Below are positions 3,381-25,987 of a stretch of 39,897 nt of DNA, in pieces. The DNA comes from Rhodospirillales bacterium. GTDB taxonomy: Bacteria > Pseudomonadota > Alphaproteobacteria > Kiloniellales > JAKSDN01. The stretch is taken from assembly GCA_029859805.1 (NCBI GenBank), contig JAOUCL010000011.1:1-39897 (forward strand). Reading direction: 5' to 3'. Numbering within the stretch: position 1 is the first letter of the stretch; each line of letters begins with the position of its first letter. A program made the translations under genes and the position numbers. The notes below the pieces were generated by a model. It was not told the origin of the DNA. It ran no database searches and saw only the letters and a list, made by a program, of their open reading frames with translations.

Positions 3381-4562
3381 ATGATCAACACCATCGATCG
3401 TTACATCCTGCGACAGGTCATCATGACGTCGGCGGCGATGATCGGTGTTGCGCTGGCCGTCCTGCTGTTGGAGCGGCTGCTCCGAATCCTCGAACGCGCG
3501 GTCAACGCCGACCAGGTGCTCGGCTACGTGTCCCGGATGTTGGTGACCCTGATCCCGCACTATCTGGGAGTTTCCCTGCCGCTCGCCTTCTTCCTCGGCG
3601 TCATGTTGACCTTCAACCGCTTGAACCGCGACAACGAGCTTGCGGTCATGACTGCTGCCGGGGCGGGCCTGCGGCGGCTGATGGCACCGGTCATGGGCCT
3701 GGCCCTGCTGCTTGCGGTGTTCGCCGCAATCACCCTCAGCTATCTCCAACCGCTGGCGCGCTACAACTATCGGGCCTTGAACGTGGCGGCGGCTCACGCA
3801 TCGCTCAGCGCGGCGGTAAAGGAGGGTACCTTTGTACATGCCGACGGCATGACCTTCATTGCGGAGGAGACGTCGCGCGACGGCCAGAACCTTCGCAAGG
3901 TCTTCGTCTACGAAGAGAACGACGACGGAAAGTCCATCGTCACGACCGCCAACGATGCCACTTTGCGCAGGGCCGCCGACGATGCGGGCTCGATATTGGT
4001 CCTTAGAGACGGACGGCGATCCAAGATCGGCCGGGATCAAGGGGATGGCACCCTCATATTCGAGCAGTTCCAATGGCCCATCGACTCATCCGACAAGGCG
4101 GTTCGGGCCCGGGGCAAGGACGAGCGAGAGCTTACCATACCGGAACTCTGGGCGGTGATGTCAGCGCCGCTGGCCCGGATCAGTGCATCGGAGGCCCGTG
4201 CGGAGCTGCATGCCCGCCTGGTCAGATTGTCGTCGATTCTCGTCCTGCCGTTGCTTGCCGTGCCGCTGGCCCTCGGTGGCGGGCGCGGCGGCCAATCCTA
4301 CGGGATCGCCGTCGGACTGCTGGTTCTGGTGGTTTACGAGCAGGTCGTAAAGTTCGGCGAGTCCATGGCGGACCTCGATCGTCTTACGCCATGGCTCGGC
4401 ATGTGGCTTCCCCTCGCCGTGCTGGCAGCGGGCAGCGGCTTCCTGTCCTACCGGGCGGCCTCCAAGGTTTCGAAAGGCAGACTGCGCAGGCTGCCGGCAC
4501 CCGTCGAGATCCTCCTCGCAATCAGGAGACGTCTGAGACCATGGCGGCGGTGGCGCAGATGA
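3381..4562 (+). CDS. lptF: LptF-family permease (YjgP/YjgQ), possibly for sphingolipid export
   Basis: A 393-residue inner-membrane protein of the LptF/LptG family. It begins with the typical amphipathic IDRYILRQV start and has N-terminal membrane helices (about 16-40, 54-78 and 103-123), a central periplasmic beta domain (about 130-270) and three C-terminal helices (about 280-375). In LptB2FG this family forms the transmembrane part of the ABC complex that extracts LPS from the inner membrane. Here it is paired with lptG (22-bp overlap) and sits immediately before a ceramide-kinase-like gene. Either these are the cell's only LptFG, or a second pair dedicated to sphingolipid transport; the context favours a lipid-specific role but cannot prove it. 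No lptA, lptB or lptC is in the window. Confidence 0.85.
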   Translation: MINTIDRYILRQVIMTSAAMIGVALAVLLLERLLRILERAVNADQVLGYVSRMLVTLIPHYLGVSLPLAFFLGVMLTFNRLNRDNELAVMTAAGAGLRRLMAPVMGLALLLAVFAAITLSYLQPLARYNYRALNVAAAHASLSAAVKEGTFVHADGMTFIAEETSRDGQNLRKVFVYEENDDGKSIVTTANDATLRRAADDAGSILVLRDGRRSKIGRDQGDGTLIFEQFQWPIDSSDKAVRARGKDERELTIPELWAVMSAPLARISASEARAELHARLVRLSSILVLPLLAVPLALGGGRGGQSYGIAVGLLVLVVYEQVVKFGESMADLDRLTPWLGMWLPLAVLAAGSGFLSYRAASKVSKGRLRRLPAPVEILLAIRRRLRPWRRWRR

Positions 4563-5632
4563 TCTCCATCGTCGGCGGATATGTTGCGCGCCTGTTCCTC
4601 GCCCGCCTGCTGGTGATCCTGGTAGCGCTTGCCGCACTGATGGTCATGGCCGATCTGCTGGCCAACAGCGACGAGATCATCGAGACCAATCAGGACGTGG
4701 CGTGGTCCTTGAGCAGATACAGCGTTCTCAGGCTGCCGGCCATTCTGGCACAAGTCATACCCATATCGGTCCTGTTGGCCTCCCTGACTCTGCTGATCGG
4801 ACTTGCGCGGCACAGCGAGCTCACCGCCATCTTTGGCGCCGGGCTGTCCCACTTCAGGGTGATCCTGATGCTGATGCCGGCAACCCTGTCGATCGCCGTG
4901 GCGCAGTTCTTGGTCGAGGACCAGGCGGTGCCGCCGGCCAGCGCTCGCCTGCGCGTCTGGGGCGTCGGTGATTACAAGGTTTTTGCCGCGGGCGCATCGC
5001 ACCATATGACCTGGGTCCGTCAAGGCGCAAATCTTGTTCGGATTGGCCGCGTCGAGGCGGCTCGAGACGAGATCTTCGACGTGACGATCTTTCACCGGGA
5101 TATCGAGGGTCAGTTGATCGAAAAGGTCGAGGCCCGGAGTGCCGCCTACGACAACGGAAACTGGACCCTGAGGGAGGTTGTGCGGACCGATCGGGATACC
5201 GGAGTGCCGACCCGCGTCGCGCGCCTGACCTGGCCGGGGGCCATTGAAAGCGCCGTGCTGCATTCGCTCAGCATCCATCCCCGGGAACTGCCCTGGACCG
5301 AGGTCAAGCGGCTGGCCGGAAAGTCGGGCTACGGCAACCAACCGCCCTATCTCTACGACGTCTGGATTCAGAAAAGGATCGCCCGCCCGCTTGGCACCGT
5401 TCTTCTGGTCTTCCTGGCGGTGGCGTCGGTGCAGCGCATGCATCCGCGCCGGCCCGCCGGGCTCATGCTGGCGGCCGGCATCGGGATAGGGTTCGTCTAT
5501 TGGATCTTCGACGAGTTGGTGGTGACGATCGGCGAGGCGGGGCTCCTGCCCTCGGTCCTGGCAGCCTGGGCCGCGCCCTTCGTTCTGGGCGCCATCGCCA
5601 CCGCGATGATCCTGCGTCAGGATGGGCATTAA
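4541..5632 (+). CDS. lptG: LptG-family permease (YjgP/YjgQ)
   Basis: A 363-residue partner of the LptF-like protein with the same layout. N-terminal helices include the conserved hydrophobic run through VLLASLTLLIGLARHSEL (about residues 75-92). A periplasmic domain follows (about 125-255), then C-terminal helices containing VLLVFLAVASVQR. The reading frame is open far upstream to 4073, but that part is antisense-like sequence overlapping lptF. The ATG at 4541 is preceded by AGGAG (4524-4528) and gives the normal family length, so I chose it. It overlaps the end of lptF by 22 bp, implying coupled translation and a one-to-one heterodimer. AGGTG and GGAG sequences in the 29-bp gap lead into the lipid kinase gene. 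Confidence 0.85.
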   Translation: MAAVAQMISIVGGYVARLFLARLLVILVALAALMVMADLLANSDEIIETNQDVAWSLSRYSVLRLPAILAQVIPISVLLASLTLLIGLARHSELTAIFGAGLSHFRVILMLMPATLSIAVAQFLVEDQAVPPASARLRVWGVGDYKVFAAGASHHMTWVRQGANLVRIGRVEAARDEIFDVTIFHRDIEGQLIEKVEARSAAYDNGNWTLREVVRTDRDTGVPTRVARLTWPGAIESAVLHSLSIHPRELPWTEVKRLAGKSGYGNQPPYLYDVWIQKRIARPLGTVLLVFLAVASVQRMHPRRPAGLMLAAGIGIGFVYWIFDELVVTIGEAGLLPSVLAAWAAPFVLGAIATAMILRQDGH

Positions 5633-5661
5633 CGCCAAGAATATGAGGTGATCGCGGAGCA

Positions 5662-6618
5662 ATGAAGATCGGTCTGATCAGCAATACGCTGAGCCAGCGC
5701 AACAAACGCGGCCTGCCGAGGCCTTCCGGGGCGTCCTCCTACGGCGTCGAGGTGCTCCACAGGCCGCTCGACGGCATTACCGGCATGGCCGAGGTTCTCG
5801 ACGAATTCGCGGCGGCCGAAGTCGGGTTGATCGCCGTCAACGGGGGCGACGGGACCATCTCGGCGGCCCTGACCGGGCTCATGGAACGGCCACGCTTCGA
5901 GGAGTTGCCACCGCTTGCGCTTCTGTCCGGCGGTATGCTCAACATGAGCGCGGCAGACGCGGGCCTCAGAGGGCCGCCCGAAAAAGCCTTGGCACGCTTG
6001 GCCGCGCGTGCCGCCGAGCCCGATCTGGCCGGCGCCTGTATCGAGCGCGAGGTGATCCGGCTGAGCCATAGCAGGAACAAGCCTCCGGTCTACGGGTTGT
6101 TTTTCGGCACGGCCGCCATTTATCGAGGTATCGTGCTGTGCAGCGAACGGGTGCACACGGTCAAGCTCAAATCCACGACCGCCGCGGCCGCGACATTCGC
6201 CTATATGCTGGGCCGCTATTTCTTCGGGCGCGGCACAGCCGATCCCTTGCTGGCCGGCGACGACATGACCGTGCGGTTCGATGGCGCGCCGGGCCAGGAA
6301 GTGACCCAGTTCCTGGCACTGGTCACCACATTGGATCGCTTGATGTTGAAATCGCGGCCCTATTGGGGCCGGGAAGCCGGGCGGCTACGCTACATGGGGA
6401 TCACCTATCCGCCCAGGCGGTTGGGCCGTTCGGCCTACCGCGTCCTCTACGGCCCCCCGGATCGCCGTCTGCCGGAGAATTACGTGAGCCACAATGCCGA
6501 CAAGGTGGCCTTCGAGATGACCTGTCCCTTTACGCTGGACGGCGAGCTCTTCGACCCGGAACCCGGCACGCCGGTGGAACTGAGCGGGGCCGGCCGCTTG
6601 CGCTTCGTACAGTGTTGA
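5662..6618 (+). CDS. DAGK-catalytic-domain lipid kinase, likely ceramide kinase
   Basis: A 318-residue protein with the diacylglycerol/sphingosine/ceramide kinase fold. The nucleotide-binding GGDGT motif is at residues 61-65 (within AVNGGDGTISAAL) and a second conserved glycine block, LSGGMLNMSAADAG, lies near residues 93-106. The C-terminal half is the beta-rich lipid-binding domain of the family. Related enzymes phosphorylate diacylglycerol, sphingosine or ceramide with ATP. In Caulobacter a homologous enzyme is a ceramide kinase needed for ceramide phosphoglycerate. With ceramide genes on both sides, ceramide 1-phosphate is the most likely product here. It lies 29 bp after lptG, and the next gene starts within about 30 bp of its stop, so all four plus-strand genes probably form one operon. 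Confidence 0.8.
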   Translation: MKIGLISNTLSQRNKRGLPRPSGASSYGVEVLHRPLDGITGMAEVLDEFAAAEVGLIAVNGGDGTISAALTGLMERPRFEELPPLALLSGGMLNMSAADAGLRGPPEKALARLAARAAEPDLAGACIEREVIRLSHSRNKPPVYGLFFGTAAIYRGIVLCSERVHTVKLKSTTAAAATFAYMLGRYFFGRGTADPLLAGDDMTVRFDGAPGQEVTQFLALVTTLDRLMLKSRPYWGREAGRLRYMGITYPPRRLGRSAYRVLYGPPDRRLPENYVSHNADKVAFEMTCPFTLDGELFDPEPGTPVELSGAGRLRFVQC

Positions 6619-6644
6619 GCGAACCGCCGACGGGCGACCGGTCG

Positions 6645-7568
6645 ATGGGCGCGATGATTCTGAGCGAACTTCGCCAGCCGGTCGCGGCATCGGTCCGGGC
6701 GGCCGCACAGGAGGTCCGTCGGCGTCACGGCGCTTCGCTTGTCGCGTGCCTGTTCTATGGGTCCTGTCTCAGGGACGGCCGGGACGAGGACCGTGTCATC
6801 GACTTCTACGCCATAGCTGACGACTACCGGCACTTCTACGATAGCCGGCTCTCGGCTGTCCTGAACGCCATACTGCCGCCCAACGTCTACTATCTCGAAA
6901 CCAATTTCGGAGACCGGGTGGTCCGGGCGAAGTACGCGGTCGTGTCGCTCGGGCAATTGATCCGCCGCACCTCGCCGGCGGCCTTCCAACCTTCGCTCTG
7001 GGGCCGGCTCGCGCAGCCTTGCGCGCTGGTCTATGCGCGCGATTCCGTGGTCGAAGAGACAGTGGCCGGCGCGCTTGCGGCGGCGGCAAAGACAATGGCG
7101 GCCGAGACGCTTGCCTTGATGCCGGCCGAATTCACGCCGGACCAGCTCTGGATCCGGGCCTTTCGGGAAAGCTACGGCACGGAGTTGAGGGCCGAGCGAT
7201 CCAATCGGCCCCAGGACCTGTATTGCGCCTACTCTGAGCGCTATGACGGCCTGACCGCCGCGGCGCTGTCCGGTTCGGAGTGCCTAGCGGCAGCGGGCGC
7301 GCCGGCGATCCGCCATCGGGCCAGTGCGGGCAAGCGCCGAGCGGCCCGGCTGCGTTGGATGATCAGGCGTCTGCTTGGGAAGACCACGCACGTGCTGAGG
7401 CTCCTGAAGGCCGCTTATACCTTCAAGGACGGGCTGGACTACATCCTCTGGAAGATCGAGAAGCACTCGGGCGTGCACACGACCCCCACGCCATGGCAGC
7501 GGCGTCATCCGCTCATGGCTGCGCCATCGCTAGCCTGGCGGCTCTATCGGCGCGGCGCCTTCCGCTGA
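6645..7568 (+). CDS. Tam41/Mmp37-like lipid cytidylyltransferase
   Basis: A 307-residue protein resembling mitochondrial Tam41, which makes CDP-diacylglycerol from phosphatidic acid and CTP. Shared features, recalled from the eukaryotic family, are the YGS loop (38-40), a following acidic ID pair (D53), a KYAVVS strand (96-101), the GRLAQP segment (120-125), the MPAEFTPDQLW block (159-169), and RESYGTELRAERSN (174-187) matching the family's SY-GD-R segment. Placed directly behind the lipid kinase, it could convert ceramide 1-phosphate to CDP-ceramide; activity on phosphatidic acid is the alternative. The frame is open upstream to 6138. GTG (6612) and TTG (6615) touching the kinase stop, and ATG at 6645 or 6654, are all possible starts; none has a strong ribosome site. 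Confidence 0.72.
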   Translation: MGAMILSELRQPVAASVRAAAQEVRRRHGASLVACLFYGSCLRDGRDEDRVIDFYAIADDYRHFYDSRLSAVLNAILPPNVYYLETNFGDRVVRAKYAVVSLGQLIRRTSPAAFQPSLWGRLAQPCALVYARDSVVEETVAGALAAAAKTMAAETLALMPAEFTPDQLWIRAFRESYGTELRAERSNRPQDLYCAYSERYDGLTAAALSGSECLAAAGAPAIRHRASAGKRRAARLRWMIRRLLGKTTHVLRLLKAAYTFKDGLDYILWKIEKHSGVHTTPTPWQRRHPLMAAPSLAWRLYRRGAFR

Positions 7569-7569
7569 A

Positions 7570-7586
7570 CGCGGGCCGCGCCCGCG
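7570..7586. terminator. GC hairpin between convergent genes
   Basis: CGCGGGC (7570-7576) and GCCCGCG (7580-7586) form a perfect 7-bp stem with a 3-base loop between the convergent ends of the Tam41-like gene and spt. There is no clear T-tract on either strand, so a bidirectional terminator role is only plausible. Confidence 0.35.
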
Positions 7587-7594
7587 CGGTCAGG

Positions 7595-8830
7595 CTACTC
7601 GGCCGACTGGCGCAGCAGATACCGCCCGGCGTTCTGCGCCTCGTAGGCGTGCATTTCCTCGGCCACCTGCCCAAAGGCCTCCGCGATCCAGTCGATCTGC
7701 TCCGGCGTATGGGCGGCGGACGCGCTGCAACGTAGCAGCGAGGTGCTGTTCGGCGTTCCGGGCGGTATTGCGAGGTTCACGTAGACGCCGGCCTGGAGCA
7801 GCTTGTTCCAGTACATGACCGCCTGCTCCTGCGTCGCGATCTTCACCGCGATGATTGGGCTGGGCGGCGCGGCGAGGGTCAATCCGAAACCGCTCAACCG
7901 GTCGTACAGCGCGTGCGCATTGCGCCACAGCGTCTCCTGCAGTCCCGGATCGCTCCGCAGCCGCCCGAGGGCCGTCGTGACCGAGGCCACGTTGGACGGC
8001 GAAAGGGAGGCCGTGAACATGTACGGCCGGCTCGCGAAGCGCAGGAACGGGAACTTCGGATGGTCCGAGGCGCAAAAGCCGCCGATCGAGCCCAGGCTCT
8101 TGCTGAAGGTGCCCACGACGAAATCGACGTCGTCCAGCACCCCGGCGTGCTCGGCAACACCGCGGCCTTTCTCGCCGAAGACGCCGACCGAATGGGCCTC
8201 GTCGACATAGAGATAGGCCTTGTGCCGGCGTTTGACCTCGGCAAACTCGGCCAGCGGCGCAATGTCGCCGAACATGCTGTACAGGCCTTCGACGATGATC
8301 AGCTTGTTCGTGTCCTTGCTGTCGAGCCGCTTAAGCCTCTTATCCAGGTCCTCCGGGCAGTTGTGCCGGAAGCGGATGACCGTGGCCCCGGTCATGCGGC
8401 AGCCGTCGTAGATGCAGGCGTGACAGTCGGCGTCCAGCAGGATGTAATCGCCGGGTCCGGCCAGGGCGGAGATTACGCCGAGATTGGCCTGATAGCCTGT
8501 CGGGAAGACCATGGACGAGGCGAATCCAAAGAAGGAGGCGATATCGTCCTCCAGCCTGCGGTGTTCCGAATAGGTGCCGTTGGCGATCCGCGATCCGGTC
8601 GTGCCCGTGCCTAGCCGATCGAGCGCATCGTGGGCTGAGTCCACGCAATCCTGGTCGAAGGTCAGGCCGAGATAGTTGTTGGTGCCGGCCAGCACGACAT
8701 TTCGCCCCCGGATAATAGCTTCCGTGGCGGAGCACATCTTATCCATGCACACACCGAAGGGGTCACTGCCGGCTGCAACGATTTGCTCGTGCAGTCCTGG
8801 CAGACCGGCAATTTTGTCAAAAAGATCCAT
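7595..8830 (-). CDS. spt: Serine palmitoyltransferase (alpha-oxoamine synthase)
   Basis: A 411-residue PLP-dependent enzyme condensing serine with an acyl thioester to give 3-ketosphinganine, the first step of sphingolipid synthesis. The PLP lysine is K244 in GTFSKSLGS. DEAHS (210-214) holds the Asp and His that contact PLP, and H138 in DADCHACI is the residue expected to stack on the ring. Related enzymes (KBL, AONS, ALAS) share these motifs. I prefer serine palmitoyltransferase because the upstream gene encodes an acyl carrier protein and the three further ceramide genes follow on the same strand. The frame opens at 8881 inside the carrier-protein gene, but ATG at 8830 falls 5 bp after that gene's stop and fits the normal N-terminus (MDLFDKI). 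Confidence 0.88.
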   Translation of the reverse strand: MDLFDKIAGLPGLHEQIVAAGSDPFGVCMDKMCSATEAIIRGRNVVLAGTNNYLGLTFDQDCVDSAHDALDRLGTGTTGSRIANGTYSEHRRLEDDIASFFGFASSMVFPTGYQANLGVISALAGPGDYILLDADCHACIYDGCRMTGATVIRFRHNCPEDLDKRLKRLDSKDTNKLIIVEGLYSMFGDIAPLAEFAEVKRRHKAYLYVDEAHSVGVFGEKGRGVAEHAGVLDDVDFVVGTFSKSLGSIGGFCASDHPKFPFLRFASRPYMFTASLSPSNVASVTTALGRLRSDPGLQETLWRNAHALYDRLSGFGLTLAAPPSPIIAVKIATQEQAVMYWNKLLQAGVYVNLAIPPGTPNSTSLLRCSASAAHTPEQIDWIAEAFGQVAEEMHAYEAQNAGRYLLRQSAE

Positions 8831-8834
8831 GTGC

Positions 8835-9086
8835 CTACTGGGCCCCCGCCTGTTTGTGTATTGCTCGGACCAGATCCCCAACTGTCCGAATTTCCGATAA
8901 GAGATTCATCGGAAATGAAATGCCGTACTCATCCTCGACTTCCATGATCAAGTCGAGCACTGCAACCGAATCGATCTCCAAGTCTCCCGTGATGTCGGTT
9001 TCGGCCGTCAGATCTAGGTTTCTGACGTTGAACTGCTGCAACTTTCGGCAGACTTTACGCAAAACCAAGTCGTCTGCGACATCCAT
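8835..9086 (-). CDS. acpR: Dedicated acyl carrier protein of the sphingolipid pathway
   Basis: A short acidic acyl carrier protein. The phosphopantetheine serine is in EIDSVAVLDL (S40 with the start used here), a variant of the usual DSL motif, followed by the helix MEVEDEYGISFP typical of carrier proteins. It directly precedes spt, matching the Caulobacter arrangement in which a specialised carrier delivers the fatty acyl chain to serine palmitoyltransferase. An ATG at 9101 gives an 88-residue product, but AGG directly touches it. ATG at 9086 has AGGATGG 11 bases upstream, so I prefer 9086 (83 residues). The 296 bp upstream to cerR hold no gene; they are relatively AT-rich and presumably contain the promoter for acpR-spt, though I see no strong match. 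Confidence 0.85.
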   Translation of the reverse strand: MDVADDLVLRKVCRKLQQFNVRNLDLTAETDITGDLEIDSVAVLDLIMEVEDEYGISFPMNLLSEIRTVGDLVRAIHKQAGAQ

Positions 9087-9382
9087 CGAGCCAGATACCA
9101 TCCTAATCGTTACTGTTTGGTTTAGCTCTTCGGGTGACTTTCCGCCGCAACCTGCCCAAAGTGTTTAGCAATGTTGCCTGCAAGCACTCAAATCACCGTT
9201 TGTTACAATATGTTTCTAGGTCACCATGCTGTGTTCTTTGCGCTAGCGCCTTTGTGCTAATCGCCAACAATTCCGTAATTCTTGGCCCTGACCGGCGCGG
9301 CGTCCAGCACCGCCCGACCGGGCACCATCGGTCCCTTCCTCCGCGCTTTGTCGTGACGACCTGCGTCTCCTTAGGCTTCCCG

Positions 9383-10324
9383 TTAGAGCCAGCGGTGGTC
9401 TTCGTACCAATTCAGGGTCAGTCGCATTCCTTCGTCCAGGCCCACTTTCGGGCGCCACGGCGAAAGGCGCGTCAGCGGGTTGTCCCGGCACACCCAGTCG
9501 TCATGGTATAGCTCTCGCACTTTGCCCGGGGAAATTCTAGGAACATGCCCGGTGATCCGCGATAAAGAGTGGTTTGCAACCGCGGCCGCGCGCATTAGGG
9601 ACCGGGGCACCGGCACGCAGGTGATCTTCCGTCCGATATGGCGACCACCTGCCTCGGCGACCGCGCGCCACGAATAGCCCTCCTCGCAGGCATCTCTGAT
9701 TTCGAACAGGGATCCGCTTTCGATCGAGGCCGAAAGCAACGTCCCGATGGCTTCGCAAAGATCCTCGACATAAATGAGTGAAATGCGTGCGCTTTCAAGG
9801 GCCGGTGTGGGAAGCAAGCCATGACGCAACAGCCGGAACAGTTGAAACGTCTCCCGGTCGCCGGGACCGTAGACCGCCGGTGGCCGAAGCGCGATCCAGT
9901 GAACGCCCTTGGCCTGTTGTGCCAGTTCCTCTTCCGCGCGCCTCTTGCTGGCGGCGTAGTCGGACAGCTCGGGATGGCGCGCAGCTAGTGAAGACAGAAA
10001 GATCAGGCGCGGCGGCCTTGGCTGGAGGGCGCAAGCCTGGACAAGCCTTGCCGTCCCGTTCGCGTTGACCCGGTGCAGGTCCTTGCTCGCGGCCGCCTTG
10101 ATCAGGCCCGCGCAGTGGACCAGGGCGTCGGCGCCCTCTACCAGGCGCGCCAGACTTGCATCGTTCTCAAGGGCGCCTTCGATGACGGTGACCCCGGCCG
10201 GCAAACGCGCCTTCTCGGGATGGCGGCACAGAGCGCGCACCTGCAGCCCCGCGGCCAGCAGGGACTCGACCAAATGGCGGCCGATGAAGCCGGTCGCTCC
10301 GGTCAGCGCTACGCTCTTCACCAT
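9383..10324 (-). CDS. cerR: NAD(P)-dependent epimerase/dehydratase-type SDR, probable ceramide reductase (CerR)
   Basis: A 313-residue extended short-chain dehydrogenase. The nucleotide-binding glycine motif is TGATGFIGRH (8-17) and the catalytic YxxxK is Y123-K127 in SDYAASKRRA, with a serine pair (SSL, 111-113) ahead of it. In Caulobacter a protein of this class reduces the keto group of the ceramide precursor, replacing the eukaryotic 3-ketosphinganine reductase. It lies 37 bp downstream of the acyl-AMP ligase gene and is probably co-transcribed with it from the promoter at 12171-12198. CAGGG sits just before the ATG. The C-terminal third (after about 230) would form the substrate-binding domain. 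Other SDR roles are possible, but the context is specific. Confidence 0.8.
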   Translation of the reverse strand: MVKSVALTGATGFIGRHLVESLLAAGLQVRALCRHPEKARLPAGVTVIEGALENDASLARLVEGADALVHCAGLIKAAASKDLHRVNANGTARLVQACALQPRPPRLIFLSSLAARHPELSDYAASKRRAEEELAQQAKGVHWIALRPPAVYGPGDRETFQLFRLLRHGLLPTPALESARISLIYVEDLCEAIGTLLSASIESGSLFEIRDACEEGYSWRAVAEAGGRHIGRKITCVPVPRSLMRAAAVANHSLSRITGHVPRISPGKVRELYHDDWVCRDNPLTRLSPWRPKVGLDEGMRLTLNWYEDHRWL

Positions 10325-10361
10325 GGTTGCCCTGCCGCTTTGGAACTGCGCCGAAGCCCGA

Positions 10362-12092
10362 TTAGTTCGGCGCAGCCGCGAAATATCCCGATAGATACCT
10401 GACCTTGGTAAAGGTCCGGCTTATCTTTCCCGACGATGTAAGCGGCAGGCTTCGTGTTGGTGCCAGAACGACCTTTGTATCGACCCCAACCGACTTGCGT
10501 ACGATCGCGGTCACGTCCTGCAAGAGCTGCTCGCGCGCATCCTCTTCATTGGTTCGGCATTGCACAATCGTGACCACTTCCTCTCCCGTCTCCGGGAAGT
10601 CCACGGAGAAGGCTGCCACGTCGCCGTTACGGATGCCCGGCAGCCGTTCCACCGCCCACTCTATGTCCTGCGGCCAGATGTTTCGGCCGTTGCAGATGAT
10701 CAGGTCCTTGCTTCGGCCGGTGATGACCAGGGAGCCGTTGATCGTGTATCCCAGGTCGCCGGTATCGAGCCATCCGTCTTCCGACAGCACGGCGGCGGTG
10801 CTTTCCGGGTCCTGGAAGAAGCCGACCATTACGCTCGGCCCCCTGACCAGGATGCGGCCCACCTCGCGGTCGGGCAGACGCTTGCCGTCCTGGTCCCGGA
10901 TCTCCACCTCGTGCTCCGGCATGGCCTTACCGCACAGTACGAAGGACCTGGCTTTCTCGGCGGGCACATCGGTGGCCGCCGGCACCGCCCGGCCGGCCTG
11001 GGCGAGTTCCTGTTTATTGACCCTATCGACCTCGAAATCGCCGTCCAAGGGGGCAAAGCTGACCGCCAGCGTCGATTCCGCCAATCCGTAGCTCGGTACG
11101 AATGCCGAACGTTTGAAGCCCGCGCCGGCGAAAGTCTCGGCAAATCGATTGAGGACACCGGCCCTGACCATGTCGCCGCCGATGCCGGCCACGCGCCACG
11201 AGGACAGGTCCAACGATTCCGCGGCTCCGTTGCCGCCCTGGCGCCGGCACAGGTCGTATCCGAAGGAGGGGCTGAATCCAACGGTGCCGCGGTTTTCCGA
11301 GATCAGGCGCAGCCAAATCAGGGGGCGCCGGGCAAAATCGGCGGTGGCGATGTAGTCCACGGACAGCTGGGATAGCGTGGGCGATATGCAGAATCCGATC
11401 AGCCCCATGTCGTGATAGAGGGGAAGCCAGGAGGCGCAGCGGTCGCCTGGGCGCACGTCCAGGCCATGCAGGGTAATCGCCCTGACGTTACTGCTGGCCG
11501 AACGCTGCGAGACGATAACGCCCTTAGGATCGCTCGTGCTGCCCGAGGAATACTGGATATAACAGAGATCGTCCCGACCGGTCGGGCGGAACTCCGGGCC
11601 CTCTGGCTGCGCGTAGAAGTCTTGCGGCGTGCCGACCATCGGGATTTCCAGGCCGTCGACCGCCTGCCGCAGCAGATCGATCATGTCCGAAGAGGCCATG
11701 GCGGCCGAAGGATCGGCCGAGACGATCATGCGCCGCAGCTGCTCGACGTAGGCGTCCTTGCCGCCCAGGTTCATGGGAACGGGAAGCTGGACCGGAAGCA
11801 GACTGGCGTACTGACAGGCGAAGAAGAAACAGTGGAAGTCCGGTGTCGTCTCCGCGACCAGGGCAACTCTGGCGCCGCGCGGCAGCTTGAGATTGACCAG
11901 CTTCCTGGCCAGCGAAATGGCATTCTCGCGAAGTTCGGCATAGGAGAGGATTTGCCTGAGTTCGCCTCGTCTCGTGTAGTAATTGTAACCGGTTTCGCCC
12001 TTGGCGGCGTAATCGAGCCCCTCCACCAGAGTTTCAAACGTGCCTAGTTGGAAGGGTAGGGCGTTATTGGATGTCGGGGTAGGGCGTTGCAT
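10362..12092 (-). CDS. acps: Fatty acyl-AMP ligase / acyl-ACP synthetase of sphingolipid synthesis
   Basis: A 576-residue adenylate-forming enzyme of the fatty acyl-AMP ligase class. The AMP/ATP loop is [11 protein letters not shown] (181-191). Downstream lie [13 protein letters not shown], which fits the class's conserved YGLAE motif, and the hinge region [22 protein letters not shown] in its first part. The enzyme should activate a fatty acid to acyl-AMP and load it onto the neighbouring carrier protein, supplying serine palmitoyltransferase. The Caulobacter ceramide cluster has the same gene order, spt, acpR, cerR, ligase. It is the first gene of a two-gene minus-strand operon, with a TATAAT promoter about 80 bp upstream. 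Confidence 0.85.
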
Positions 12093-12469
12093 CAGGGTTG
12101 CGGTGTATCACACGCAGAAACGTTCGCCGGTGTCAGAGAAGGCCGGCTCGGCCAGGAATCCATGGTGGTGATTATACGACCGTCCTCGTTTTTGTCTTCC
12201 GTTTCGTGCGAACGAAGCCGTATGCGCGCCTGGCAGTGGAGTCCCTCGGCCGGCCGCCCGCGAAGATGCTTTCTCCAACATTTTGCCCAAAAAGCAAGCT
12301 CAAAGTGCCTGAGCGGCCCTTAGGATCTTCTTAATTTGCCGATCCATTTTCGGGAAACATCCCGCCGACCGGTACGGAAGTCTCCGAAGGAAACGGCAAC
12401 CGGCCGTATCTTCCGCAAAAGTGGCAAATCGTGCCGATGCCACCATGAACGGGGAACGGGGCGCTCCGG
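12093..12469. other. Intergenic region upstream of the acyl-AMP ligase gene
   Basis: A 377-bp gap between the end of the ABC exporter gene and the start of the acyl-AMP ligase gene, both on the minus strand. Its left part holds the promoter listed at 12171-12198. The rest is less GC-rich around 12190-12360. Small open frames (for example 12098-12334) have no recognisable features, and I do not call them genes. Confidence 0.6.
12171..12198 (-). promoter_or_regulatory. Sigma70-type promoter for the ligase-cerR operon
   Basis: On the minus strand AAGACA (12198-12193) is followed after 16 bases by a perfect TATAAT (12176-12171). It points to the ligase start at 12092 and gives a leader of about 75 nt. 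A perfect -10 box is rare in this GC-rich sequence, which makes it stand out. Confidence 0.6.
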
Positions 12470-14188
12470 TCACAGCAGGTTGGCGCGGGACTCTGACTCT
12501 CGAACCAGGCTGTATTGGTCCGCGCCCAACTCGAAGAGCTGGTCGGCCACAGCGATCCAGGCCGGCCGATGCGTGATGGAGAGGATCGTCAAGGAGCTCG
12601 AAAGGTCACGTATGTTGCCGCAGATCGCCAATTCGGTTTCCGGGTCGAGCGCGCTGGTCACCTCGTCTAGGATCAGCAGCGAGGGCTTGTGGACCAGGGC
12701 GCGCGCGAGGGCGATGCGCTGGCGCTCGCCGCCCGACAGCTTGATGCCCCGCTCCCCCGCCTCGGACATGAGGCCGTCCGGCAGGGCCGAAACGAAGTCC
12801 CACGCGCCGGCCGCCTCGAGCGCCGCGCGCACTTGTTCGGTTCCCAACGATTGGTCGCCGAGGGTGATGTTCGCCAGGATCGTGTCGTGGAACAGGATCA
12901 GCTCCTGTGGCACATAGCCGATCATGGCGCGCCATGCCTGCAGGTCGATCTGCTCCAGCGGTACGCCGTCGATCAGTATGTCGCCCTGGTCGGGCCGATA
13001 GAGGCCGAGCAGGAGGTCGGTCAGCGTCGTCTTGCCGACGCCGGACGTCCCCATGATCACCGTCACCTGCTTGGCTGGGATCTCGACGGAAACGCCTTGC
13101 AGGACGGGCTTCGATCCGAAGGCGAAGGAGATATCCCGCATCGAGCAGCCGCGGTCGAGCGTCGGCTGGACCGTGCCGTAGAGGACCTCTCTCTCCCGCT
13201 CGGATTCGGCCACCAGATTGTGGATCGACCAGTAGGCGCTCTCGACGATGGCGGCGTCCTGGAAGAGTCTCTGCATCTTGTTGATCCGACTGACCGTCCG
13301 CTGCAGCACCAGACCCATGACGAGCAACTCGGAGATCGGCAGGGACCAGATCCTGACCACCAGGTAGAAACTGATCGCCAGGCAGACGGTCAATAGCGGT
13401 TCCTGCAGGTTCTGCATGATCTGGCGGCTGATCACTTGGCGGCGCAGGGCCTGCCGCAGCTCACCGGTCTTTCGCCGGAACAGATTGGCGAAATGGGTCT
13501 GCCGGGACATCGCCTTGAGCGGCTTGATGCCGACCAGCGCGTCGCTCAGATAGGTGACCAGTTCCTTGGTCCGCTTGGTTTGGCGCCGGCCTGCCTTGCG
13601 CGCCTTGCGCACCATCGAACTCAGCACGAGCGCGATAAGACCGCCGATACCGAAAGCCACGACGGCAAGCTTCCAGGACAGCAGCAAGGCCACCGCCAGG
13701 TAGGCAAGGCATTGGATCGCGCCGGCCAGGAACTGGACGGCAAATACGTAGGCCTGGGCCGAGCGCGTAGCCTCGAAGCTGACTGCGTTGGCGATCCGTC
13801 CGACAGGCTGGCGCGTGAAGTAGCTCCATTTGACCCGGAGGAGACTGTCGATCAGCCTGGTCCTGAGTTGGGTCGCGACTTCGGCCGCCGCATATCCGAC
13901 GTGCCTCATGGCGAGGATACCCAGCGCAGCCCGCAGGCTGATACCTAGAACCACGATGATGACCAAGGTTTCCAGGTTGGCCGACAGGCCGAGACTTTCG
14001 AGCGATTCCACCACCAGCCGGCTGGCCGGCGAGGACTGCGCCGCGGCGTCGCCGCCGGCGATCGAGACCAGGGGCAGCAGGCTGGTCAGGCCAACACCCT
14101 CCGCCAGGCCCGCGAGCAGCAGGAGGATCAAGACCGTCCAGCGGGTCGTGCCCTGGGAGGCCAGGAATATGCGTATCACACCGAGCAC
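12470..14188 (-). CDS. MsbA-like ABC exporter (fused membrane and ATPase domains)
   Basis: A 572-residue half-transporter that should act as a homodimer in the inner membrane. Residues 1-310 carry the transmembrane domain, with helices at about 17-42, 73-93, 147-171, 173-192 and 265-280. The ATPase domain has Walker A GTSGVGKTT (380-388), signature LSGGERQR (484-491), Walker B LLILDE (504-509) and a switch histidine in SITHRP. The family flips lipids (MsbA) or exports glycolipids and peptides. Its place directly behind the ceramide operon suggests flipping of ceramide or its headgroup-bearing product. The start is GTG at 14188 (MLGVIRIF); a nearby GTG could serve instead. Export of a glycan intermediate is the main alternative. 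Confidence 0.8.
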   Translation of the reverse strand: MLGVIRIFLASQGTTRWTVLILLLLAGLAEGVGLTSLLPLVSIAGGDAAAQSSPASRLVVESLESLGLSANLETLVIIVVLGISLRAALGILAMRHVGYAAAEVATQLRTRLIDSLLRVKWSYFTRQPVGRIANAVSFEATRSAQAYVFAVQFLAGAIQCLAYLAVALLLSWKLAVVAFGIGGLIALVLSSMVRKARKAGRRQTKRTKELVTYLSDALVGIKPLKAMSRQTHFANLFRRKTGELRQALRRQVISRQIMQNLQEPLLTVCLAISFYLVVRIWSLPISELLVMGLVLQRTVSRINKMQRLFQDAAIVESAYWSIHNLVAESEREREVLYGTVQPTLDRGCSMRDISFAFGSKPVLQGVSVEIPAKQVTVIMGTSGVGKTTLTDLLLGLYRPDQGDILIDGVPLEQIDLQAWRAMIGYVPQELILFHDTILANITLGDQSLGTEQVRAALEAAGAWDFVSALPDGLMSEAGERGIKLSGGERQRIALARALVHKPSLLILDEVTSALDPETELAICGNIRDLSSSLTILSITHRPAWIAVADQLFELGADQYSLVRESESRANLL

Positions 14189-14373
14189 AGGTTTCGCCGC
14201 CTAAAGCGGACTCTCCTTTCGGTCGCGATTTCATATGCCCGGAACACCCGCCCGGGAGCGAGTCAAGGTTCCAGGCACGACTCTTTGGCGAATCAAGGGC
14301 TTCCTAACAGACTGAACGAGTTTTCGCCAGCTACCAATACGGGCTGGAGCAGGGCCCGGGCCGCAAGGCCGGA

Positions 14374-14838
14374 TTATCCGGCGGGCCAACGGCCGCGCAG
14401 AAAATCGGCTAAGGCCGCGATTTGGGTTTGATCGAGCGCGGCCGCCGCGCTCAGGTCGGGGACGCCGGGCCAGCCGGCGTCGGCAAAGGCGACCCCGCCG
14501 AATTCCTTGGTTTCCGCATACCTCGGAATGACGTGGAAATGGACGTGCGGGTCGACCATCATGAGCATCAGGTAGTTGAGCTTGTCGTAAGAAAAGGCCT
14601 GGCCCAAAACGGCCTCGATGTCTCCGGTTGCGGCCGCCAGGCTGGTGAAGGCGCCCTGGCTGATGTCCGAGAAGCGCGTTGCCTGTTCCCGGCAGGCCAG
14701 CACAAGGGACCCGAGGGTCACCTGCTGCGGCCGCAGCAGGACAGTCCAGTGCTCGTAATTCGCCAGCAGGGTGTGCGGATATCCGAACTTCGCGATGGTC
14801 TCGTTGGCGGCAACCGGATGTTCAGCGTCCTGGGGCAT
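14374..14838 (-). CDS. HIT-family nucleotide hydrolase/transferase
   Basis: A 154-residue histidine-triad protein. The signature is DPHVHFHVIPRY with H98, H100 and H102; H100 would be the nucleophile forming the nucleotidyl-histidine intermediate. The family cleaves nucleoside 5'-phosphate esters such as dinucleoside polyphosphates, AMP-lysine or nucleotide sugars. The gene is single on the minus strand and diverges from the CDP-alcohol transferase gene. Since neighbours probably make CDP-activated intermediates and acyl-AMP, a clean-up role on such nucleotides is conceivable but not shown. The ATG at 14838 gives a compact normal-length HIT protein. Confidence 0.85.
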   Translation of the reverse strand: MPQDAEHPVAANETIAKFGYPHTLLANYEHWTVLLRPQQVTLGSLVLACREQATRFSDISQGAFTSLAAATGDIEAVLGQAFSYDKLNYLMLMMVDPHVHFHVIPRYAETKEFGGVAFADAGWPGVPDLSAAAALDQTQIAALADFLRGRWPAG

Positions 14839-15133
14839 GTGGCGGTCTCCACGTCCTTCGTATCGTAGCTGCGTCGCCCGGTGGCGCCGGCAGTCTAAGC
14901 GTTAGCGGGGAAATCGCAAAGCACAAGCCATCTGGGCGTTTCCTTTCGGCATGGGATGCACTATGTACCCAGCCAAATCCGCAGGGTCCGGGTGGCGGGC
15001 CGTCGGTACGGGCCAGGGCCGACTGGCCAGGGTCGACTGGACTGCCGCCGCGCGGGGGGGCGTGGCCGATGCGGGGGAGGGCCTCGGCCGCAGCTTCGCC
15101 GGCCGGGTGACGAAGTTTTGGAGTGATGCTTTG

Positions 15134-16327
15134 GTGAATACAACTGTCCCCGGGGCGGACGAGGCCGGGTCGCCCAATCTGTATCTCGTCGGAAGTTGCG
15201 ACACCGAGATCTGGGGCTTGACCGAGGTCGAGCGTCACACCCGCGCCTTTCGGCGGGCCGGCGTGTCCTCGGTTCTGTCGGCCGGACAGCCCCTGCCGCA
15301 AGAGGGCGCCGTGATCATGGTCCGGAGCGAGTATGTCTTTGCCGCGGAGCTGGTCCAGGCCCTGGCCGAGACGCCGGGTGTCGTCCTCGCGGTCGAGAGC
15401 GAGCGTCCCGGCGAAAGGATGGCCGTCGCGGCCCACATCGATGCCGCGCAGGCCGGCGTGGTCGAGAAGCTCCTGGCGCGCGGCGTCTTCGGCGGAGACG
15501 ATCATGTGCCGTCGAACCTGCGTGTTCTGTCGCCCGAGGAGCTCGGTCCCTCGTACAACAGGTCGCTGCGCAAGCGCGCTGTTCCCTTCGTCCTGCCACT
15601 GAACGAGCGCTCGCGCGCCGAGGTCGAAAAGAAGACCTTCGCGGCGGTCTACAAGGGCGCGACCGACTTCGTCACCAAGTGGTGCTGGCCCGTCCCCGCC
15701 CGCTGGGTGACCCGCTGGGCCGCCGCATGGCGCATCTCGCCCAACACCGTCACCACGGTCAGCCTGGTCTTCGTGCTCCTCGCCATGTACCTCTTCGCCG
15801 AGGGCCAGTTCCTGCTGGGCGTGGCCGCGGCCTGGTTCATGACCTTTCTCGACACGGTCGACGGCAAGCTCGCCAGGGTGACCATGACCTCCTCCGCCTG
15901 GGGCAACGTCTACGACCACGGGATCGACCTGATCCATCCGCCCTTCTGGTGGTGGGCCTGGTGGCATGGTCTGCAGCAGGCCGGGACCGCCGCCGCGCCG
16001 GCGACCCTCGATCTGGCGCTGTGGATCGTCGTCGTGGGCTATGTCGTCGGCCGGCTCCTGGAGGGGGTGTTCCACTGGACCTTCAAGATCCAGACCCACA
16101 TCTGGCGTCCCGTCGATTATTTCTTCCGCACGATCACCGCGCGGCGCAATCCCAACCTGGCGATCCTCATGGTGGCCACGGTCTTCGGCCGGCCCGACCT
16201 GGGGCTCATCGCCGTCGCGGCCTGGACCGTCCTCTCCATCGTCTTTCATGTCGAGCGCATCGCCCAGGCCGCCTTCGTCCGCGCCCGAGGCGGCCGGATC
16301 ACGTCCTGGCTGAGCGAGCCGGGGTGA
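15134..16327 (+). CDS. CDP-alcohol phosphatidyltransferase with N-terminal degenerate nucleotidyltransferase-like domain
   Basis: A 397-residue membrane enzyme. The full CDP-alcohol phosphotransferase motif, D-x2-DG-x2-AR-x8-G-x3-D-x3-D, is present with D240, D243, D261 and D265. Helices surround it from about 205 to 385. Residues 15-135 resemble the nucleotidyltransferase-fold domain seen ahead of some CDP-alcohol transferases (WGLTEVERHTRAFRRAGV; VRSEYVFAAELVQAL) but lack the glycine-rich nucleotide loop, so this part is probably non-catalytic. The enzyme swaps CMP for an alcohol or sugar phosphate; here it could use CDP-ceramide or a CDP-headgroup to build the sphingolipid head. The frame extends upstream to 14951, but GTG at 15134 has GGAG (15120-15123) ten bases ahead. 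The 295 bp upstream hold no other gene. Confidence 0.82.
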   Translation: MNTTVPGADEAGSPNLYLVGSCDTEIWGLTEVERHTRAFRRAGVSSVLSAGQPLPQEGAVIMVRSEYVFAAELVQALAETPGVVLAVESERPGERMAVAAHIDAAQAGVVEKLLARGVFGGDDHVPSNLRVLSPEELGPSYNRSLRKRAVPFVLPLNERSRAEVEKKTFAAVYKGATDFVTKWCWPVPARWVTRWAAAWRISPNTVTTVSLVFVLLAMYLFAEGQFLLGVAAAWFMTFLDTVDGKLARVTMTSSAWGNVYDHGIDLIHPPFWWWAWWHGLQQAGTAAAPATLDLALWIVVVGYVVGRLLEGVFHWTFKIQTHIWRPVDYFFRTITARRNPNLAILMVATVFGRPDLGLIAVAAWTVLSIVFHVERIAQAAFVRARGGRITSWLSEPG

Positions 16328-16386
16328 GCGGCAAGGCGACGCGCGTCGGTTCGACGGCGGCGGCTCGGCCGGTATCGGATACCGTC

Positions 16387-17088
16387 ATGACCGGACAGTC
16401 GAGTCCCCCCGATGTCGCGGCGCGCCCGGTGGCGGCCGTCTTCGATCTGGACAAGACCATCACCAGGCAGGCGACCTACATTCCCTTTCTGCTGTCGGTT
16501 GCCCGTCACAAGGTCTTCAAGCTGCTCTACGTGGTGCCGATCGTCGGAGCGGGGCTGGCCTACAAGATCGGCCTGATTTCAAGGGGCCGGGTCAAGGAGC
16601 TCATGCTGACGGCCATTCTGGGCAAAGCCTCGCGCGCCGAGGTCGCGGCCTACGCCGAGGCCTTCGTCGCCGAGTGCGTCGGCCGCGGACTCCGTCCCGG
16701 CGCCCTGCGCGCCATTGCAGAGCACCGCGCCCGGGGCCACAACTTGATCCTTGCAACGGCCAGCTTCGACTTCTATGTAGAGCGCCTTGGCCGGGAACTC
16801 GGCTTCGACGCGGTGATCGCCACCCGTTCGGCCTGGGACGAGAGCGGGCGTCTGCTCGGCAGGATCGATGGCGAGAACTGCTATGGAGCGGAAAAGCTGC
16901 GCCGGCTGGAAGAGGCGCTGCCTGACCTGCGGGGGAGCTATCGGGTGGTCGCCTATTCCGACAGCCACGTCGACCTGCCCTTGCTGTGTTGGGCGGACAG
17001 CGGCGTGGCGGTCAACCCGTCGCGCAGGCTGCGCCGGCGCGCCCGGTCAGGAGGACTGGATGTCGTCGATTGGAACGAGGTCTCGTGA
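16387..17088 (+). CDS. HAD-IB family phosphatase
   Basis: A 233-residue haloacid dehalogenase-type phosphatase. The nucleophile motif is FDLDKT (19-24), with D20 the phosphoryl acceptor and D22 the acid/base. Motif II is the Thr/Ser of LATASFDFY, and motif IV is YSDSHVDLPLL with two aspartates. Its class includes phosphoserine phosphatase and the phosphatidylglycerophosphatase PgpC. A hydrophobic cap stretch at about 35-60 suggests membrane or lipid contact. The gene follows the CDP-alcohol transferase by 59 bp; a GTG at 16324 overlapping the upstream stop would make them directly coupled. It could remove a terminal phosphate from the lipid made by that transferase, as PGP phosphatases do. 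Confidence 0.78.
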   Translation: MTGQSSPPDVAARPVAAVFDLDKTITRQATYIPFLLSVARHKVFKLLYVVPIVGAGLAYKIGLISRGRVKELMLTAILGKASRAEVAAYAEAFVAECVGRGLRPGALRAIAEHRARGHNLILATASFDFYVERLGRELGFDAVIATRSAWDESGRLLGRIDGENCYGAEKLRRLEEALPDLRGSYRVVAYSDSHVDLPLLCWADSGVAVNPSRRLRRRARSGGLDVVDWNEVS

Positions 17089-17125
17089 CACGGCGGGCGC
17101 CGGTCCGGTCGACAACCGGAATATC

Positions 17126-17140
17126 TTAAGGGAGCCTTAA
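17126..17140. promoter_or_regulatory. Small perfect inverted repeat
   Basis: TTAAGG (17126-17131) and CCTTAA (17135-17140) flank GAG. It lies 54 bp ahead of the nucleotidyltransferase start. It may be an operator half-site pair or a weak hairpin; too short to assign. Confidence 0.25.
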
Positions 17141-17193
17141 CCCGCCATCCGCCATCTACTCGTTTGACCCCTAGCGACTCGTGGAAAGCCCAA

Positions 17194-17955
17194 ATGAAAG
17201 CACTCATCCTTAGCGCCGGGCAGGGCTCGCGCCTGCTGCCTTTGACCGAGGACCGTCCCAAATGCCTGCTGCCGATCAACTCCTCCAGGATGATCGAGCT
17301 GCAGATCCGCGCGCTGATCGACTGCGGGATCGACGAGATCGCGGTGGTGGTCGGCTTTCGCGCGGCGGCCGTGGCGCATTTCCTCGAGGAGCTCGATCAC
17401 ACGGGCGCGGCGATCCGCACCCTGTTCAATCCCTTCTTCAACGTGGCGGACAACCTGGCCAGCTGCTGGATGGCCAGGGGCGAGATGGACCGGGACTTCG
17501 TTCTGCTGAACGGCGACACCCTGTTCGAGCCGGCGGTGCTCGACCGCCTGCTCTCCGCCCCGGCGGCACCGATCACCATGGCCATCGACCGCAAGGCGGC
17601 CTACGATTCGGACGACATGAAGGTGCGGCTCAACGGCAGCCGCCTGGTCGAGGTCGGCAAGACTCTGTCCAGCGAGCTGGTCGACGGCGAGTCGATCGGC
17701 ATGATGCGCTTCCTGGATGAGGGGCCGAGGCGCTTTGCCAGTGTGCTCGACGAGATCATGCACACGCCGAACGGCATCAGCTGGTGGTACCTGAAGGCGA
17801 TCGGCGTGCTGGCCGACCAGGCCCTGGTCGAGACCCGCTCGATCGAGGGGCTGACCTGGGGGGAGGTCGACTTCCGCGAGGACCTCGAGCGCGCCGAGAC
17901 GCTGTTTCCGGACCAGCCCTCCGTGCTCGGCGCCGCGGCGGGCGGCGCCGGGTGA
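17194..17955 (+). CDS. Sugar/alcohol-phosphate nucleotidyltransferase (LicC-like)
   Basis: A 253-residue NTP transferase. The nucleotide loop is LSAGQGSRLLPLTEDRPKCLLP, split here as the glycine-rich part at residues 6-12 and the RPKCLLP part at 20-26. The metal-binding Asp is in LLNGDTLF. Overall it resembles CTP:phosphocholine cytidylyltransferases and related small NTP transferases rather than large UDP-glucose pyrophosphorylases. ATG at 17194 follows GGAAAG; the TTG at 17164 is less likely. It lies between the CDP-alcohol transferase/phosphatase pair and neuA. It could make the CDP-alcohol used by the former, or an NDP-sugar for nonulosonate synthesis, as a GlcN-1-P nucleotidyltransferase does in the legionaminate route. 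Confidence 0.75.
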   Translation: MKALILSAGQGSRLLPLTEDRPKCLLPINSSRMIELQIRALIDCGIDEIAVVVGFRAAAVAHFLEELDHTGAAIRTLFNPFFNVADNLASCWMARGEMDRDFVLLNGDTLFEPAVLDRLLSAPAAPITMAIDRKAAYDSDDMKVRLNGSRLVEVGKTLSSELVDGESIGMMRFLDEGPRRFASVLDEIMHTPNGISWWYLKAIGVLADQALVETRSIEGLTWGEVDFREDLERAETLFPDQPSVLGAAAGGAG

Positions 17956-18003: not shown

Positions 18004-18726
18004 ATGTCAGCAAGCAACGGTCCGGCCCCGAAACGGCTGGCCATCATCCCGGCGCGCAGCGGCAGCAAGGGCGTGCCGGACAAGAACATGCAGCTGGTCG
18101 GCGGCGAGACCCTGATTGCCAGGGCCGTGCGCGTAGCGCGGGAAACCGGCCTGTTCGACACCATCCTGGTATCGACCGATTCGCCGGACTATGCCGAGGA
18201 GGCCAAGCGCGCCGGCGCCGAGGCGCCGTTCCTGAGGCCGGCGGACTTGGCCGGCGACAGAGCCGTCGTTCTGGACGCTATCCGGCATGTCCTCGACGAG
18301 CTGGCGGCGGCCGGGCGCGCGTTCGACCTGTTCGCCCTGCTCGAGCCCACCTCGCCCCTGCGCAGCGTGGCGATCGTCCGCGAGGTCGTCGCCGCGGCCG
18401 AGGCCGAGGGCTGGGACGCCGCCATGGCCGTCAGCCCTGTTCCGTCTCAGATGCACCCCCTCAAACAGCTCGTCGTCGATGCCGAGGGGCGCTCGCAGCG
18501 CTTCGTGAAGCAGGCGGCGAAGGTGATCAACCGCCAGGAGCTGACGCCGACCTACGTGCACAATGGCATGTGCTACGCCATACGCGTCCCGGCGTTCAGA
18601 GAAACGGGGGCGATTTTCGGCACGCGCGCCCGCGCGATTGTCATCGAACGGCCCTACGTCAGCATCGACACGCCGGAGGACCTGGAGACGGCGCGGGAGT
18701 TGATTGGAGCCGGTCCTTTCCGATAG
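18004..18726 (+). CDS. neuA: CMP-nonulosonate (acylneuraminate-type) cytidylyltransferase
   Basis: A 240-residue enzyme that activates a nine-carbon acidic sugar with CTP. Diagnostic are IIPARSGSKGVPDKN (14-28), the STDS substrate loop, LEPTSPLR in the middle, and the C-terminal SIDTPEDLETA. The exact sugar (neuraminic, legionaminic or pseudaminic) cannot be read from these motifs. Partner genes neuB-like and neuC-like lie 9 kb away at 27601-29798 on the same strand, separated by glycan genes. The start ATG at 18004 follows TAGGAG directly upstream. It is the last plus-strand gene before a convergent methyltransferase. Confidence 0.85.
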   Translation: MSASNGPAPKRLAIIPARSGSKGVPDKNMQLVGGETLIARAVRVARETGLFDTILVSTDSPDYAEEAKRAGAEAPFLRPADLAGDRAVVLDAIRHVLDELAAAGRAFDLFALLEPTSPLRSVAIVREVVAAAEAEGWDAAMAVSPVPSQMHPLKQLVVDAEGRSQRFVKQAAKVINRQELTPTYVHNGMCYAIRVPAFRETGAIFGTRARAIVIERPYVSIDTPEDLETARELIGAGPFR

Positions 18727-18730
18727 GCCG

Positions 18731-18752
18731 CGCACTTTTGTCGACGAGTGCG
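18731..18752. terminator. Hairpin between convergent neuA and methyltransferase genes
   Basis: CGCACT (18731-18736) and AGTGCG (18747-18752) form a perfect 6-bp stem around a 10-base loop that contains TTTTG. It fills the 26-bp space between two convergent stops, so a shared terminator is likely even without a strong T-tract. Confidence 0.4.
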
Positions 18753-19721: not shown

Positions 19722-19967
19722 GTGTTCTCCTAGCCGCACCCGAGAATACCATGATTTTGGCGGGGACGGCTTTCTCGCGTATTCATCGCTTCGAGGGCTG
19801 CAAACGGACCCGTTGTAGTCCTCGGGGAGACGATTTCCAACACTTTAGATGGTTCGAATTGGTCCGTGCGGCCTGGGCGACTTTGCTCTTCTCATGTCTA
19901 AGCCCTGGGCGAAAAAGAAGCCTTTTAGCTGCATGCTTGTGATCTCATCGCTGCTTGACCGCAGTCG

Positions 19968-21194: not shown

Positions 21195-21196
21195 AC

Positions 21197-25965: not shown

Positions 25966-25987
25966 TTAAACTCCTTAAGCGCAAGCC

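Follow-up and report, generated by a model that had tools for sequence, protein, structure and literature searches.

A ceramide phosphoglycerate gene cluster of a Kiloniellales bacterium encodes a Tam41-family protein likely to form CDP-ceramide

The DNA analyzed here (the window) is a stretch of 39,897 nucleotides, contig JAOUCL010000011.1, from a 5.36-Mb metagenome-assembled genome of a Kiloniellales bacterium (GCA_029859805.1). Open reading frame, Pfam and NCBIfam searches delimited a single cluster at positions 187-17955, which holds the whole gene set for the ceramide phosphoglycerates CPG and CPG2 (ceramide diphosphoglycerate), in which ceramide bears acidic headgroups. At its center lie cpgB (5662-6618, + strand), which encodes a ceramide kinase of the DAGK_cat family (PF00781, E 3.5e-10; GGDG motif, with NGGDGT starting at 5839), and, only 26 bp downstream, cpgC (6645-7568, +), which encodes a 307-residue nucleotidyltransferase (NTase) of the Tam41 family, judged by its fold and by PF09139 matches of its homologs. 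CpgC is proposed to be a CTP:ceramide-1-phosphate cytidylyltransferase, the product of which would be CDP-ceramide.

The genes for ceramide synthesis are on the opposite strand. They encode serine palmitoyltransferase (SPT; 7595-8881, -; NF047599, 621 bits against a cut-off of 500), an AcpR-type acyl carrier protein (8835-9101, -; recognized by its DSVAVLDLIMEVEDE motif and its position, and syntenic with spt), CerR of the NAD-dependent epimerase/dehydratase family (9383-10324, -; PF01370, E 6.1e-26), the fatty acyl-AMP ligase AasR (10362-12092, -; NF006624, 783 bits against a cut-off of 600) and a bCerS-type ceramide synthase of GNAT fold (1002-2201, -; PF00583, E 1e-5), whose role is taken from cerS (PMC11324152). 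Among the 80 named related loci used for comparison, cerR is syntenic in 35 and cerS in 46. The right part of the cluster encodes the CDP-alcohol phosphotransferase CpgA, which has an N-terminal degenerate cytidylyltransferase-like domain (15128-16327, +; PF01066, E 1.5e-8), a HAD-IB phosphatase (16372-17088, +; TIGR01490, 138.8 bits against a cut-off of 98.3) and the COG1213-like CTP:phosphoglycerate cytidylyltransferase CpgD (17194-17955, +; PF00483, E 1.3e-12). Thus, the genes for SPT and ceramide synthesis occur together with the CpgB-CpgC pair, CpgA and CpgD, and the locus is a CPG/CPG2 cluster, the counterpart of that of Caulobacter: a known cluster type in a new lineage. The nearest named contigs, L028 and L029, are from uncultured Kiloniellales bacteria, and their CpgC proteins are 91-92% identical to that of the window.

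An earlier note on this DNA, made from the sequence alone, had described a kinase with GGDGT followed by a Tam41-like protein with YGS, KYAVVS, GRLAQP and MPAEFT blocks, and a CDP-alcohol transferase with a complete motif followed by a HAD-IB phosphatase. All of these are present, at 5662-7568 and 15128-17088, respectively. The two pairs do belong to one cluster, as the note held, but they are separated by about 7.4 kb of mostly opposite-strand ceramide genes, and the span given for the locus (5662-17088) was too short, so that the CofC-like, CerS, hydroxylase and LptFG genes fell outside it on the left and CpgD on the right.

The kinship of CpgC with Tam41 emerged from homologs and from the fold. 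With the window CpgC alone, no Pfam match was obtained (PF09139, Tam41_Mmp37, was below the threshold), and phmmer detected no match among PDB sequences. A profile of 20 CpgC sequences (the window protein and relatives of the same order) gave only chance matches in the PDB. When the PF09139 profile was run over the genome itself and 299 genomes of the phylum, almost nothing was found; this absence means little, because the CpgC subfamily calls for more sensitivity than the Pfam model offers. PF09139 was matched by four of the 20 close homologs (best E 2.1e-4) and by 21 of 34 diverse homologs, which included sequences from Desulfobacterota, Nitrospirota and others (best E 8e-10). The profile search proposed in the earlier note therefore failed for the window protein but succeeded for its homologs. 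Furthermore, the 34-sequence profile picked Schizosaccharomyces pombe Tam41 (6ig2) from all PDB sequences (E 5.5e-5), and the alignment brought together the KY, GR..QP, FT and SY...R blocks.

The CpgC structure was predicted from the 20-sequence alignment (mean predicted local distance difference test score, 90.9). In a Foldseek search with this model, the best five matches were all Tam41 (E 1.6e-8 to 2.5e-7). By VIA-align, the model matched Firmicutes Tam41 (7ecd) with Z 19.0 over 230 aligned residues at 3.3 A and S. pombe Tam41 with Z 16.6, whereas the next-best fold, that of aminoglycoside nucleotidyltransferases, reached Z 8.1; the structural check likewise proposed in the note thus bore out the Tam41 kinship. 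The predicted fold consists of an NTase domain and a second, winged-helix domain. The Tam41 fold accounts for residues 11-260, and nothing in the model points to another catalytic domain. The YGS, KYAVVS, GRLAQP and MPAEFT blocks begin at residues 38, 96, 120 and 159, and Y38-G39-S40, D53, K96, W119, R121, Q124-P125 and E180-L181-R182 are invariant in the 34 sequences. Accordingly, CpgC has the GS motif and a single invariant NTase acid (D53), with a tyrosine two residues on in nearly all sequences. Of the three acids usual in NTases, Tam41 is reported to keep just one (PMC11646218). At the family level, the assignment of CpgC to Tam41 is firm.

We then consider the substrate. Genomes were compared among 58 relatives, 25 of which have CpgC; a quality subset (at least 90% complete, at most 5% contaminated) comprised 47. 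Within this subset, a strong SPT (E <= 1e-135) was present in every one of the 20 relatives that have CpgC and in none of the other 27; the relatives share ancestry, and these counts are uncorrected. A CpgB homolog adjoins CpgC in 74 of the 80 loci. The Caulobacter CpgB ortholog makes ceramide-1-phosphate in vitro, and loss of this ceramide kinase leaves phosphatidic acid unchanged (PMC10331486). A separate CdsA (PF01148) is present in 21 of 24 CpgC genomes, that of the window included, so CpgC is not needed for CDP-diacylglycerol (CDP-DAG). In the Caulobacter CC_1161 (CpgC) mutant, neither CPG nor CPG2 was present and ceramide was moderately raised (PMC11324152). The SPT linkage, the adjacency of CpgB, the separate CdsA and this phenotype favor ceramide-1-phosphate as the likely substrate of CpgC, and hence CDP-ceramide as its product. 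Characterized Tam41 enzymes use phosphatidic acid (PMC7018664, PMC11646218), and CpgC might accordingly be a second CDP-DAG synthase, with CDP-DAG or the phosphatidylglycerol derived from it supplying the phosphoglycerate head of ceramide indirectly. Since CdsA is already there, CpgC tracks SPT, and the neighboring kinase belongs to ceramide rather than to phosphatidic acid by its ortholog, we regard this explanation as improbable. Apart from this, a second gene of the CdsA family lies outside the window in the same genome (G000:C33:9980-11433), next to one for a CDP-alcohol transferase.

The first half of the route in the earlier note, from ceramide through ceramide-1-phosphate to CDP-ceramide, is thus supported by the family, the fold, the SPT linkage, the separate CdsA and the finding that Caulobacter needs the orthologs to make CPG (PMC11324152). 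The note had called a CDP-activated sphingolipid in bacteria notable. Such an intermediate is now likely, but the idea is not new: in 2024, a CDP-DAG-synthase InterPro domain was noted in CC_1161 and an NDP-activated ceramide was suggested (PMC11324152), so that it is already in print for the Caulobacter ortholog. Papers of 2025 and up to May 2026 still give CpgC "an unidentified mechanism". CpgC homologs in bins of Desulfobacterota, Nitrospirota, Planctomycetota and Calditrichota show that the CpgB-CpgC pair is not confined to the Proteobacteria that PMC11324152 lists. The wide distribution of CpgB alone was noted earlier (PMC10331486).

Several points weigh against CDP-ceramide formation and the scheme built on it. 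No dedicated CDP-alcohol transferase fits as a consumer of CDP-ceramide. One 100% complete genome with CpgB and CpgC but without CpgA (G017) has just two PF01066 proteins, both PgsA-like. The term CDP-ceramide was found in none of the 5.39 million papers searched, the coverage of which was incomplete. In addition, the orthology with the Caulobacter genes is based on gene content, families and published annotations. CpgC could then form CPG in another way, without CDP-ceramide, for example by a bifunctional reaction or by acting on an intermediate that contains glycerate or phosphoglycerate; the only proteins known to be needed for CPG are CpgB and CpgC (PMC11324152), and the recent papers leave the mechanism open. 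However, Tam41-type NTases move CMP to a lipid phosphate (PMC7018664), and the CpgC model is accounted for by the Tam41 fold, no other catalytic domain being apparent. We consider this alternative unlikely, if less so than a second CDP-DAG synthase.

If CpgC forms CDP-ceramide, an enzyme must consume it. When a CDP-alcohol transferase common to all CpgC genomes was sought, only PgsA seemed universal among the matches listed. Among the same matches, CpgC genomes had PssA, a YnjF-like class and a second class of PgsA-like proteins only patchily, and the last of these also occurred without CpgC; the assignment to classes relied on scores and on inspection of about 20 sequences. The uncharacterized enzymes left in minimal loci are a CofC-like protein and a calcineurin-type phosphoesterase, the genes of which occur in loci both with and without CpgA among the 39 long loci used for co-occurrence counts. 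Because the PF01066 proteins of G017 are PgsA-like only and these two enzymes remain in the minimal loci, the candidates for the consumer are PgsA or a paralog acting broadly, the CofC-like protein, the calcineurin-type phosphoesterase, or the product of a gene elsewhere.

In six loci that have an ordinary CpgA, a further CDP-alcohol transferase was observed beside LptG2, which is CpgA-like but deeply divergent (L042:2474-3682, L044:2511-3800, L071:3132-4358, L078:3154-4383, L082:2713-3924 and L098:2735-3937, all - strand). It could be a dedicated transferase for CDP-ceramide or for another headgroup. As a general CDP-ceramide consumer this subfamily was rejected, being confined to Dongia-type loci.

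CpgA itself has the complete motif DTVDGKLAR...GNVYDHGID, and the motif residues (DxxDGxxAR...GxxxDxxxD) are invariant in 26 sequences. The predicted CpgA structure matched AF2299 (Z 24.0) and IPCT-DIPPS (Z 22.6) over its full length, and CpgA combines an N-terminal cytidylyltransferase-like domain with a motif-bearing CDP-alcohol phosphotransferase domain, as DIPPS/AF2299-type proteins do. CpgD matched the cytidylyltransferase half of the bifunctional IPCT-DIPPS family (E 9.3e-17). From this fold match and this family match, CpgA and CpgD look like a split IPCT-DIPPS pair. Such a pair would suit the use by CpgA of CDP-glycerate from CpgD; Caulobacter CpgD makes CDP-glycerate (PMC12275187). 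The 14 of the 58 relatives that have CpgA are precisely those that have CpgD; all are CpgC genomes, and both proteins are missing from the other 11 of the 25 CpgC genomes. They also co-occur in the 39 long loci (Fisher p 2e-5, indicative only, as the loci are related). Across genomes, CpgB and CpgC thus form a core, to which CpgA and CpgD are joined as an optional module.

In the scheme of the earlier note, CpgA would couple an alcohol phosphate with CDP-ceramide, and the phosphate would then be stripped by the HAD phosphatase, as in mitochondrial phosphatidylglycerol synthesis. All four enzyme classes are present, and the nearest NCBIfam models of CpgA, archaetidylinositol-phosphate and PIP (phosphatidylinositol-phosphate) synthases, use phosphorylated acceptors. 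Nevertheless, CC_1159 (CpgA) is dispensable for CPG in Caulobacter (PMC11324152), so that genetics already contradicts these last two steps, and both the shared absence of CpgA and CpgD from 11 of the 25 CpgC genomes and the IPCT-DIPPS-type fold speak against them as well. We regard them as very improbable. CpgA probably does not act on CDP-ceramide; instead, we propose that it adds the second phosphoglycerate.

The HAD-IB gene was found at such a locus only in the window and in the same-genus relative L028, which does not fit the general pathway step that the note had assigned to it. A calcineurin-like phosphoesterase (metallophosphoesterase; PF00149, E 3.8e-15) is encoded in 51 of the 80 related loci. 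None was found at the window locus, and the genome gave only a weak match (E 1.3e-6). The HAD-IB phosphatase probably stands in for this metallophosphoesterase as a non-homologous replacement. HIT-superfamily enzymes include CDP-lipid hydrolases. A gene for a HIT-domain protein (14374-14838, -; PF01230, E 8.7e-6) accompanies CpgA in 18 of the 25 long loci with CpgA and in none of the 14 without it (p 8e-6, indicative only, the loci being related), and its product may be involved in the formation of CPG2. The CofC/MobA-like NTP transferase (187-1005, -; PF12804, E 1e-10) adjoins cerS in most related loci, and its counterpart CC_1153 is needed for CPG2 in Caulobacter (PMC11324152).

The remaining genes of the cluster encode LptF2 (3381-4562, +; PF03739, E 6.1e-73) and LptG2 (4541-5632, +; PF03739, E 3.8e-61), putatively for phosphosphingolipid export, an ATP-binding cassette (ABC) exporter, the counterpart of the putative flippase CC_1166 (12470-14188, -; PF00005, E 4e-31; PF00664, E 6.7e-22), and a fatty-acid hydroxylase family protein (2188-2985, -; PF04116, E 2.8e-22; syntenic in 29 loci), which possibly acts on the ceramide acyl chain. 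The sphingolipid cluster is adjoined by a sialic-acid-like (nonulosonate) sugar cluster at 18004-31212, with a CMP-sugar synthetase, NeuB, a UDP-GlcNAc 2-epimerase, a UDP-sugar dehydrogenase and methyltransferases. Farther on are a gene for an ELM1 (mitochondrial fission) family protein (31237-32445, -; PF06258, E 8.4e-74) and, at 32262-38590, a formate-dehydrogenase-like set in which DUF3305/DUF3306 genes lie beside those for a molybdopterin oxidoreductase and a 4Fe-4S subunit.

In the scheme that we favor, ceramide would be made by AasR, AcpR, SPT, CerR and CerS and phosphorylated by CpgB, as demonstrated for the Caulobacter ortholog. CpgC would most likely transfer CMP from CTP onto ceramide-1-phosphate, giving CDP-ceramide and pyrophosphate, and a further enzyme would exchange CMP for glycerate to give CPG. 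CpgD would supply CDP-glycerate, as its ortholog does, and CpgA would use it to convert CPG to CPG2, an order that genetics supports. This later stage may be aided by the CofC-like protein and by the HAD phosphatase, and LptF2/G2 and the ABC exporter would carry the lipid outward. We consider this scheme as a whole fairly probable. A wider claim is somewhat less secure, and we hold it to be probable on balance. In it, CpgC would act as a CTP:ceramide-1-phosphate cytidylyltransferase, and CDP-ceramide would be a genuine intermediate and the first sphingolipid known to be activated by CDP, used in Alphaproteobacteria, Desulfobacterota, Nitrospirota and others. In minimal loci having only CpgB, CpgC, the CofC-like protein and the phosphoesterase, its consumer would be a transferase that is either new or repurposed. 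If so, ceramide is activated in bacteria in the same manner as phosphatidic acid in cells generally, and CDP-ceramide lies on the route to the lipid with which Caulobacter can live without lipopolysaccharide. The Tam41 membership and the division into CpgB-CpgC and CpgA-CpgD narrow the question of CpgC to one enzyme activity, that with CTP and ceramide-1-phosphate.

Compared with known systems, the window locus has the same genes as the CPG2 locus of Caulobacter crescentus (CC_1152-CC_1168; PMC11324152, PMC12275187, PMC10331486), namely those for ceramide synthesis, ceramide kinase, the CDP-DAG-synthase-like CpgC, CpgA, CpgD, the CofC-like protein, LptF2/G2 and the ABC exporter. Unlike in Caulobacter, no LptC2 was recognized in the cluster and the sugar cluster follows directly; a HAD-IB phosphatase lies beside CpgA, whereas most related loci have the calcineurin-like phosphoesterase. 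CpgC shares with the CDP-DAG synthase Tam41/TAMM41 (PF09139; 6IG2, 6IG4, 7ECD) the NTase and second-domain fold, the GS motif, the single invariant NTase Asp and the KY and GR..xP blocks, but its identity is only about 14% over the structural alignment and it is linked genetically to ceramide synthesis. Finally, with respect to AF2299 and IPCT-DIPPS (4O6N, 4MND) of the di-myo-inositol-phosphate type of pathway, CpgA resembles both over its full length and CpgD the cytidylyltransferase half, whereas the two activities of IPCT-DIPPS would here reside in separate proteins and the activated group would, by orthology, be glycerate.

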